DNA of 44,943 bases from Candidatus Uhrbacteria bacterium (GTDB taxonomy: Bacteria; Patescibacteriota; Patescibacteriia; UBA9934; UBA11717), in contig JABIWD010000050.1 in NCBI GenBank assembly GCA_018701105.1, positions 1 through 44,943 on the forward strand. Reading direction: 5' to 3'. The notes below the pieces were generated by a model. The model saw only the letters and a list, made by a program, of their open reading frames with translations. It did no database searches and was not told where the DNA came from. The translations under genes were made by a program, and so were the position numbers. Below, piece by piece: positions 5,605-44,844 of the stretch (within the stretch, counting starts at the first letter, position 1; the number at the start of each line of letters is the position of its first letter).

Positions 5605-5720
5605 ACCCCTCCGCCCGTTGGGCACCTCCCCTTAGTAGGGGGAGGACACCTTGGTTTACTAGTTTGTTCTCCCCTTCCCGAGGGGAGATGTCAAAGGCGG
5701 AGCCACTTTGACAGAGGGGT
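5605..5720 (+). repeat. Composite palindromic repeat family 1, copy A
   Basis: ACCCCTCCGCCCgttGGGCACCTCCCCTTag..GGGGGAGG ... CTCCCCTTcccgAGGGGAGATGTCAAAGGCGGAGCCACTTTGACAGAGGGGT. Confidence 0.9.
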
Positions 5721-5885: not shown

Positions 5886-5918
5886 GCTGGTGCGGACGCG
5901 CAGAAGGGCGTCCCTACG
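5886..5918 (+). repeat. Palindromic repeat family 2, copy 1
   Basis: GCTGGTGCGGACGCGCAGAAGGGCGTCCCTACG; matches reverse complement of 15750-15782. Confidence 0.75.
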
Positions 5919-6032: not shown

Positions 6033-6107
6033 TGGTGCCTCTGGAAGGAATCGAACCTCCAACTTATCCTTAGGACGGATTTGTTATATCCATTTAACTA
6101 CAGAGGC
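6033..6107 (-). tRNA. tRNA-Arg (anticodon CCT)
   Basis: GCCTCTG...GTCCTAA anticodon loop...GGTTCGATTCC...CAGAGGCACCA; acceptor pairs, CCA encoded. Confidence 0.85.
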
Positions 6108-6224: not shown

Positions 6225-6343
6225 ACCCCTCTGTCATAAGCGCTTCGCTGTATGACATCTCCCCTCAATCAAGGGGAGAGCAAGCTAGTAGACTAGGTGT
6301 CCTCCCCTTGACTCAAGGGGAGGTGCCCAACGGGCGGAGGGGT
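6225..6343 (-). repeat. Composite palindromic repeat family 1, copy B (inverted)
   Basis: ACCCCTCTGTCATAAGCGCTTCGCTGTATGACATCTCCCCTcaatcAAGGGGAG ... CCTCCCCTTgactcAAGGGGAGGTGCCCAACGGGCGGAGGGGT. Confidence 0.9.
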
Positions 6344-15707: not shown

Positions 15708-15749
15708 ATATAATGCCAGATTAGCATATTCACAGGCTATTTTCCAACC

Positions 15750-15782
15750 TGTAGGGACGCCATTCTTTGCGTCCGCGCCAGC
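15750..15782 (-). repeat. Palindromic repeat family 2, copy 2
   Basis: Reverse complement GCTGGCGCGGACGCAAAGAATGGCGTCCCTACA. Confidence 0.75.
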
Positions 15783-31789: not shown

Positions 31790-31826
31790 AGCCTCCCATT
31801 GATTATTCATGGGAGTTTTTGTTTAT

Positions 31827-33338
31827 ATGAGTTACACAATCAAGTCAGCAGCAGTGCTCGGTCTCAACGTCGAGCCAGTATCAGTAGAAGTCGACATCTC
31901 GTTTGGAATGAAGAAGTTCAACATCGTGGGTTTACCGGACCGCGCAGTGTCGGAGGCGTGCGGTAGGGTAGAGTCCGCAATCAAAAACAGCGGGCTGCCA
32001 TTTCCTCGATACAGAATCACAGTAAACCTCGCGCCTGCGAGCCTTAAGAAGCAAGGACCCTCGTACGATCTACCTATCGCGGTCGGATTACTCTACTCGC
32101 AGGGGCATTTAACAAACCACGAACTCGACGATGCCCTCGTTATCGGAGAACTTGGACTCGACGGAGTTATAAGACATGTCGATGGAGTCTTACCGATAGC
32201 CCTCGCCGCAAAAATGCTTGGGGTTACAACATTGATCGTTCCAAAAGAGAACGAGAAGGAGGCCGCGCTCGTTGAAGGACTCATCGTGATCGGAGTCGAC
32301 CACCTGAAGACACTCGCAGCACACCTCGAAGGCTCGTCAATCATCGAGCCCACGCCAACTACGGTTGTAGACTTCCATCCTTCCACATCATTTTCCCACG
32401 ACATGGTCTACATCAAGGGTCAGGAGCGAGCAAAGCGTGCGCTCGAGATTGCAGCAGCAGGGCAGCACAACATTTTACTCTCAGGACCACCAGGATCTGG
32501 AAAAACTATGCTCGCTCGTACGCTTCCAACGATCCTCCCCGATCTCACACTCAACGAAGCACTCGACATAACACGCATCCACTCAATCTCCGGCAAACTT
32601 AAAGGCCGCGCACTTGTAGATGAGCGGCCTTTCCAAGCGCCACATCATACGACGTCCGGTGTCGCGCTAATCGGTGGAGGGTCGAACCCTAAGCCGGGGC
32701 AAATCAGCATGGCGCATCGTGGCGTCTTGTTTCTTGATGAGTTTCCGGAGTTTAAGAAGAACGCGCTCGAGAATTTACGGCAGCCGCTCGAGGACGGAAC
32801 GATTACAGTCGCACGAGCTGCAGGCACAGCAGAGTTTCCTGCAAAGTTCATGCTCGTCGCCGCCATGAATCCGTGTCCGTGTGGTTTTGCGAGTGATCCG
32901 TTTCATCAATGCGTCTGTACTCACAGTCAGATAATCAAATATCAGAAGAAGCTTTCAGGCCCATTGCTCGATCGCATCGACCTACACCTGGAGGTACCTA
33001 AGATCGACGTCGAGAAACTGACAAGTCTCAACGAAGGCGAGCTCTCGGCGAGTATTCGCGAACGAGTACAGGCAGCTCGCAACATTCAGACGCTCAGGTT
33101 CGAGGGATCGAGCCTGGTTAGTAACACTGACATGCGCGCGCAAGACGTTAAGGAGTATTGTCCGATGGAGAAGACCGCCGAGCAGGTGTTGACTACTGCG
33201 GCACGATCGCTTCACTTGTCGGCACGTGCGTATATCAGGATTATTAAGGTCTCGCGGACGATTGCAGATCTTGCTGGCGTGGGCGAGATTATGTTGGAGC
33301 ATGTAAGTGAGGCGCTGCAGTTTAGGGAGCGGGGGTAG
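31827..33338 (+). CDS. comM: YifB/ComM family Mg-chelatase-like AAA ATPase
   Basis: IKSAAVLGLNVEPVSVEVDI...GPPGSGKTMLARTLPTILP...FQAPHHTTSGVALIGGG...AAMNPCPCG. Confidence 0.93.
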   Translation: MSYTIKSAAVLGLNVEPVSVEVDISFGMKKFNIVGLPDRAVSEACGRVESAIKNSGLPFPRYRITVNLAPASLKKQGPSYDLPIAVGLLYSQGHLTNHELDDALVIGELGLDGVIRHVDGVLPIALAAKMLGVTTLIVPKENEKEAALVEGLIVIGVDHLKTLAAHLEGSSIIEPTPTTVVDFHPSTSFSHDMVYIKGQERAKRALEIAAAGQHNILLSGPPGSGKTMLARTLPTILPDLTLNEALDITRIHSISGKLKGRALVDERPFQAPHHTTSGVALIGGGSNPKPGQISMAHRGVLFLDEFPEFKKNALENLRQPLEDGTITVARAAGTAEFPAKFMLVAAMNPCPCGFASDPFHQCVCTHSQIIKYQKKLSGPLLDRIDLHLEVPKIDVEKLTSLNEGELSASIRERVQAARNIQTLRFEGSSLVSNTDMRAQDVKEYCPMEKTAEQVLTTAARSLHLSARAYIRIIKVSRTIADLAGVGEIMLEHVSEALQFRERG

Positions 33339-33390: not shown

Positions 33391-33522
33391 ACCCCTCCGC
33401 CCTTTGGGCACCTCCCCTTCGTAAGGGGAGGGGTTATGCTAGTGATACTAGGGAAACCAAGTCCGCCTCTCCCCTTACGAAGGGGAGACGTCATAAAGCG
33501 AAGCGACCTATGACAGAGGGGT
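33391..33522 (+). repeat. Composite palindromic repeat family 1, copy C (abuts DUF559 gene)
   Basis: ACCCCTCCGCCCTTTGGGCACCTCCCCTTcgtAAGGGGAGG ... CTCCCCTTacgAAGGGGAGACGTCATAAAGCGAAGCGACCTATGACAGAGGGGT. Confidence 0.9.
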
Positions 33523-33563
33523 GTGACCTAGTGAAATGCAAGCAAACCAAGCCATTCAAGACT

Positions 33564-33932
33564 ATGACAACCATCTTCAACAAACACTCAATGAAAACTA
33601 GGAGACGCGAGCTAAGACACGCGGCGCCAAAAGCTGAACGAATCCTCTGGAAACACCTGCGCCGCAAGCAACTCGACAACCACAAGTTCAGACGACAGCA
33701 CAGCATCAACGGCTACGTCGTTGACTTCTACTGTCCGCAACAAAGGCTCGCCATTGAAGTCGACGGCCCAACTCACTTTCGAGGGATCGAGTCCGAGGTA
33801 TACGACAAAGAAAGGCAAATACAAATCGAGTCCCTCGGCATCACCGTCCTTCGTTTCACCAATGCCGATGTCTATGAAAATACTGACAATGTCATACTTT
33901 CTATCTTGAATTGTTTGAGATGGAGCCCTTGA
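33564..33932 (+). CDS. DUF559-type endonuclease-like protein (PD-(D/E)XK/Vsr-like)
   Basis: RRELRHAAPKAERILWKHLRRKQLDNHKFRRQHSINGYVVDFYCPQQRLAIEVDGPTHF...KERQIQIESLGITVLRFTNADV; track start 33510 lies inside repeat copy C, ATG 33564 more likely. Confidence 0.85.
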   Translation: MTTIFNKHSMKTRRRELRHAAPKAERILWKHLRRKQLDNHKFRRQHSINGYVVDFYCPQQRLAIEVDGPTHFRGIESEVYDKERQIQIESLGITVLRFTNADVYENTDNVILSILNCLRWSP

Positions 33933-40798: not shown

Positions 40799-40945
40799 AC
40801 CCCTCTGTCAAAGTTGCTTCGCCTTTGACATCTCCCCTCCGGAAGGGGAGAGGCGCACTTAGCTTTTCTAGCATCGCTAGTTTTCCAGCACCACCAGCAA
40901 AACCCCTCCCCTTACGAAGGGGAGGTGCCCGAAGGGCGGAGGGGT
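40799..40945 (-). repeat. Composite palindromic repeat family 1, copy D (inverted)
   Basis: ACCCCTCTGTCAAAGTTGCTTCGCCTTTGACATCTCCCCTccggAAGGGGAG ... CCTCCCCTTacgAAGGGGAGGTGCCCGAAGGGCGGAGGGGT. Confidence 0.9.
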
Positions 40946-44656: not shown

Positions 44657-44844
44657 CTGGTACTGCTGAAACGAAAAGGTTGCTTCACTCCCGTTCGCAA
44701 TGACGTGCTGGTAGTGCTCGCAATGACGATCTAGGAAAAATCGAGCTTTTACGAGCTCGGTTTTTGTTTGACGGTGGACGGTGTTGTTGGTACAAAGGTT
44801 AGGTTCGAGTTTGAGAGTGATCGAAACCTGTGCTGGAGGAGCTG

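Follow-up and report, generated by a model that had tools for sequence, protein, structure and literature searches.

What spreads the short palindromic repeats that can fold into triple helices and are scattered through many bacteria, E. coli included, and does a small nuclease gene lying beside them take part? The question is raised by a contig of a Candidatus Uhrbacteria bacterium (assembly GCA_018701105.1, JABIWD010000050.1), whose whole analysed stretch of 44,943 nucleotides is called the window here. A sequence-only reading had described four copies of a composite palindromic repeat, one of them immediately upstream of a DUF559 (PD-(D/E)XK, Vsr-like) gene, and had proposed, by parallel with REP/RAYT systems, that the enzyme mobilises or processes the repeats. 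The repeats and the gene were found to be as described, and that observation is confirmed. The interpretation is supported only in part, since the association of gene and repeats proved to be real and far wider than this genome, whereas the action of the enzyme on the repeats remains an inference.

The repeats and the nuclease gene of the window

The four copies lie at 5605-5720 (A, forward strand), 6225-6343 (B, reverse strand, beside a tRNA gene at 6036-6107), 33391-33522 (C, forward strand) and 40799-40945 (D, reverse strand), each with the modules that had been described. The motif ACCCCTC occurs 14 times in the window, against 3.5 expected. In the whole genome (893,575 bases in 63 contigs, 96% complete) the strict left-end pattern occurs 7 times, and hairpins of the form CTCCCC-N3-14-GGGGAG occur 17 times, against 0 for the reversed control pattern. 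These make up seven full composites (three more on contigs C2, C12 and C59), one left half copy (position 3561 of contig C42) and two other hairpins. A search for known RNA families returned only tRNAs in the window.

Aligned, the seven copies share the arrangement GACCCCTCC-[GCCC..GGGC]-A-CCTCCCCTT..AAGGGGAGG-variable spacer-TCTCCCCTT..AAGGGGAGA-[GTCA..TGAC]-AGAGGGGT. In copy C, the left outer block ACCCCTCC (33391-33398) is the mirror image of the left hairpin arm CCTCCCCA and could act as a third strand, and it is followed by a GCCC-TTT-GGGC mini-hairpin (33399-33409) and by the left hairpin CCTCCCCTT-CGT-AAGGGGAGG (33411-33431). The right half contains the hairpin TCTCCCCTT-ACG-AAGGGGAGA (33468-33488), a GTCATA...TATGAC hairpin (33490-33514) and the right outer block AGAGGGGT (33515-33522), where AGAGGGG is the mirror image of arm GGGGAGA and is again a possible third strand. 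A hairpin plus an adjacent mirror block is the signature of an intrastrand triplex, and this feature is visible in all seven copies. The composite is therefore best described, from sequence alone, as two triplex motifs in inverted orientation, whose second loops are the GCCC/GGGC and GTCA/TGAC hairpins. The earlier suggestion that variable loops with maintained stems reveal selection for structure could not be drawn from these copies, since 31 of 35 stem pairs never vary and none changes on both sides; the argument for structure comes instead from the comparison between genomes, where the stem letters differ but the plan is kept.

The DUF559 gene (33510-33932, forward strand) has its first ATG in the end of repeat C but lies outside, not inside, this repeat, and its domain starts near 33591. 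It matches PF04480 at 113 bits and is the only copy in the genome. Upstream lies a Mg-chelatase/ComM-like (ChlI) gene (31809-33338, forward strand). Among the relatives compared (genomes are denoted by G and a number), DUF559 also follows this gene in the same-genus G001, but not in G002 or G004; the DUF559 proteins of the window and of G001 are only 41% identical, and the composite lies on opposite sides of the DUF559 gene. An apparent inversion of the DUF559 unit between these two genomes was discarded as an artefact of loci read on different strands. G001 carries diverged composites of the same plan at or next to sites B and D. Nevertheless, comparison at sites A-D gave no precise boundary, as G001 has contig breaks or a diverged repeat there and G002 and G004 are too distant. 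The window also holds a second interspersed hairpin family (TAGGGACGCCCTTCTG..GCGTCC; 5886-5917 and 15744-15782) with more than 15 matches in G001, and a third short repeat (44666-44704) with at least eight matches in the same genome.

Association of DUF559 with the repeats in relatives and across phyla

Had the repeats been equally abundant in genomes without DUF559, and adjacency not enriched, the proposed link would have failed; neither proved to be the case. Of 59 genomes of the order and family, 25 have PF04480, and these contain a median of 9 hairpins against 2 in those without it (p=0.0006, phylogeny not corrected), while all 10 genomes without any hairpin lack DUF559. However, some genomes have many repeats and no DUF559 (G028, G037, G046), so the gene is not needed to keep existing copies. 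When read on the right strand, almost every true DUF559 gene of these relatives is flanked by such hairpins, in two layouts: the gene lies inside the pair, with its reading frame ending in the right-hand repeat (four loci), or between two units (two loci). Moreover, in one genus (g9) the two ends of the DUF559 unit found at a trx site recur without the gene, as pairs about 100 bp long, at many loci. As for the enzyme of the REP system, no Y1 transposase was hit in the genome of the window or in the most repeat-rich relative (G032), and 0 of 20 Y1_Tnp loci have a hairpin of this kind near the gene, which led to the rejection of RAYT/Y1 as the mobiliser. Two divergent, low-scoring PF04480 hits have none either.

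The 80 nearest DUF559 loci among GTDB species come from Bacteroidota, Chloroflexota, Cyanobacteria, Nitrospirota, Pseudomonadota, Spirochaetes, Patescibacteria and others, and from one archaeon. Of these, 69 have C/T hairpins within 260 bp, 48 of them on both sides, with a density of 3.68 per kb near the gene against 0.166 elsewhere in the same loci, that is, 22 times higher. Pooled with the relatives, 95 of 108 loci carry hairpins beside the gene. In fact, 196 of 215 hairpins have the mirror third block, where 27 are expected in shuffled flanks, and 103 are perfect, where 1.6 are expected. In 36 of 65 loci with hairpins on both sides, the loop cores match or are complementary (2.2 expected, the largest of 2000 shuffles giving 10). 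By contrast, 0 of 23 loci of Vsr, the nearest related enzyme family, have any such hairpin in up to 3.2 kb.

ycjD and BoxC in Escherichia coli

The DUF559 gene of E. coli is ycjD, which hits PF04480 at 167 bits. In K-12 its last codons run into a C/T repeat, and the gap between ycjD (1,351,407-1,351,760) and fabI holds the motif CCCTCGCCCCTCTGGGGAGAGGGTTAGGGTGAGGGG, which is TM_ECO number 9 of MG1655 (1,351,204-1,351,239) in the published list (PMC4666352). TM_ECO is BoxC, also called PIT, a triplex motif shown to fold in vitro, with 23 copies in MG1655 that include five inverted pairs, each of a type A and a type B motif, 29 copies in strain 55989 and one in IHE3034; the authors looked for mobility genes around the sites, found none and called the origin unclear (PMC4666352). 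Across Enterobacter, the motif number is reported to vary from under 30 to over 300.

ycjD is present in 3365 of 5426 E. coli genomes, and in three genomes read without it other transporter genes occupy the site, reported as the eef operon (PMC12817139). Strong BoxC hits occur in 4132 genomes, and further BoxC hits were found in 47 of 48 ycjD+ genomes sampled with an approximate ycjD query (80-84% identical to real copies). This leaves 1294 genomes with no strong hit, which, judging by that sample, are nearly all among the 2061 without ycjD, about 63% of them. This is an estimate from totals and is confounded with phylogroup; in addition, O157 strains keep some BoxC although their group is reported to carry eef in place of ycjD. 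A gonococcal DUF559 gene, of the NGO0050 type, is likewise flanked on both sides by C/T hairpin repeats, which are CCCTCTCCCTGTGGGAGAGGG-like.

Filled and empty sites

BoxC pairs are present or absent among E. coli strains at hrpB-mrcB (102 bp difference), fepB-entC (186 bp) and lldD-trmL (150 bp), with partial loss at alx-sstT (75 bp). At base level, in a comparison not polarised by an outgroup, 5-20 bp of target is replaced and no target duplication is seen (hrpB-mrcB and fepB-entC), which does not fit a classical MITE of a DDE transposon. Some short alleles are hairpin-mediated deletions of filled ones, in which a pair has collapsed to a single hairpin (hrpB-mrcB, alx-sstT). In genus g9, the trx site holds a DUF559 unit in G010 and G032 and is empty in G015, G024 and G034. 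The clearest case is the leucyl-tRNA synthetase gene, leuS, of G045, where the hinge before the editing domain holds hairpin, DUF559 and hairpin in one open frame of 717 codons, whereas same-genus G344 has a short loop; a NUDIX-like domain and an assembly gap follow downstream. DUF559 also lies in frame within HsdR-, MmeI-type and ISP-type genes and in an intein-like stretch of a Chloroflexi DNA methylase, where the repeats are read through as APSPSTGRAGEGV; these cases rest on the interrupted genes alone.

The predicted nuclease

The structural model of the window protein (pLDDT 86.5) matches NGO0050 of Neisseria gonorrhoeae (3hrl, Z 17.2), the homing endonuclease I-Bth0305I (Z 13.4) and Vsr (Z 11.1). 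Residues that fit a Vsr-like active site (E, D, ExDG, H) are invariant or nearly so in 26 sequences, which places the protein among the DUF559 PD-(D/E)XK Vsr-like nucleases, its activity being inferred. The Vsr family PF03852 was not among the Pfam hits of this protein. A defence-system role was discarded, as only weak PADLOC hits were obtained for the window protein and none for YcjD. Neither was a phage or plasmid origin supported, since only 3 weak phage hits were found and many of the 45 "plasmid" records are multi-megabase replicons, at least those of E. coli and Neisseria being chromosome-sized.

Comparison with known systems

With BoxC, the composite shares the C/T hairpin plus mirror third block, inverted pairs of two types differing in loop 2, and an intergenic, strain-polymorphic distribution. 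Nevertheless, the window's repeats do not fit the TM_ECO consensus, CCCTCNCCC-N3-6-GGGNGAGGG-N3-GGGNGAGGG, since their stems are CTCCCCTT and loop 2 is a mini-hairpin of 12 or about 27 nt instead of 3 nt; no enzyme had been linked to TM_ECO (PMC4666352).

REPIN-RAYT systems (TnpA_REP, REPtron) also consist of inverted pairs of palindromic repeats scattered in intergenic sites, with a small dedicated nuclease gene flanked by the same repeats, an organisation that was found here. However, RAYT is a Y1 HUH enzyme and REPs carry GTAG (PMC8266576), whereas here the enzyme is of the PD-(D/E)XK type, the Y1 family (PF01797) gave no hit in the genome, neither GTAG nor CGTC belongs to the conserved composite in the seven copies, and the repeats are triplex motifs. 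YcjD, NGO0050 and VsrA are nucleases of the same DUF559 family, none of which had been tied to repeats in the papers found. The homing endonuclease I-Bth0305I and Vsr share the predicted catalytic fold, but Vsr genes show no such repeats, and I-Bth0305I has extra DNA-binding parts and is intron-borne. Rickettsia palindromic elements are likewise inserted in frame in genes, although they are not known to carry a nuclease gene.

Interpretation

The explanation favoured, with moderate confidence, is that the repeats and the DUF559 gene are parts of one mobile-element system, whose ends are intrastrand-triplex motifs arranged as an inverted pair. In this view, the DUF559 protein would recognise and cut or nick DNA at the motifs of its own lineage, and host break repair or replication restart would then copy the unit into new places. 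Pairs without the gene, such as those of the window's genome and the BoxC pairs of E. coli, would be non-autonomous copies, as REPINs are to RAYTs. The analysis itself establishes the physical association across phyla, the matching ends on both sides of the gene, the gene-less copies with the same ends, the presence/absence alleles and the in-frame insertion into leuS, so that mobility of the units is well supported; that DUF559 cuts the motifs, that cutting drives their spread and how the copy is made are all inferred, no cleavage data being at hand. A PD-(D/E)XK nuclease alone is not expected to join strands, so host enzymes are needed. The lack of a clean target-site duplication in E. coli, the repeat-rich genomes without DUF559, the phylogroup confound and the position of the gene outside repeat C weigh against this explanation.

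The main rival, although unlikely, is that DUF559 is a homing-type selfish gene that cuts repeat pairs, or other sites, lacking it and is copied in by homologous repair with the repeats as homology arms, the repeats themselves arising and spreading by other means. The fold match to I-Bth0305I, the second best, the position of the gene inside a pair or between two, and the DUF559 in an intein-like stretch are in accordance with this. Nevertheless, gene-less pairs sit at many unrelated sites, which homing alone does not explain, and the unit in leuS carries its repeats along. Less likely still is passive linkage, in which a repair or restriction-like nuclease merely travels with repeats spread by replication slippage, host recombination or another enzyme. 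Repeat-rich genomes without DUF559 exist, and VsrA of Caulobacter is reported to act in a Vsr-like, methylation-linked way (PMC12907096), but the association holds across phyla with lineage-specific matching loops on both sides of the gene, and Y1 and Vsr genes show none of it. Finally, a caretaker that resolves or repairs triplexes or cruciforms, kept in linkage because each needs the other, is very doubtful, since, although triplex-motif loci are reported to be unstable in E. coli and the motif to stop polymerase in vitro (PMC4666352), and a Vsr-like fold fits a structure- or mismatch-directed nick, a caretaker need not sit inside or beside the repeats, nor insert in frame in leuS.

Significance

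The repeat class and the enzyme family were each known, but no report joining them was found in the open-access literature, to which the search was confined. As the system fails the defining tests of REPIN-RAYT and of duplication-making MITEs, it is regarded as a new kind, with mobilisation by the enzyme still inferred. In its boldest form, which is about as likely as not, DUF559 nucleases would be the dedicated enzymes of a cross-phylum class of mobile elements with intrastrand-triplex ends, and E. coli YcjD the unrecognised mobiliser of BoxC. This would be a mobile-element class driven by a lone PD-(D/E)XK hydrolase acting on triplex-forming DNA, able to insert even in frame inside essential genes. 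BoxC/triplex repeats are reported from hundreds of bacterial genomes (PMC4666352), and the old question of how they arise and spread becomes directly testable in E. coli K-12 through ycjD. One common gene family of unknown role, DUF559, is now their candidate partner, and the repeats, in turn, provide this family with a concrete candidate substrate.
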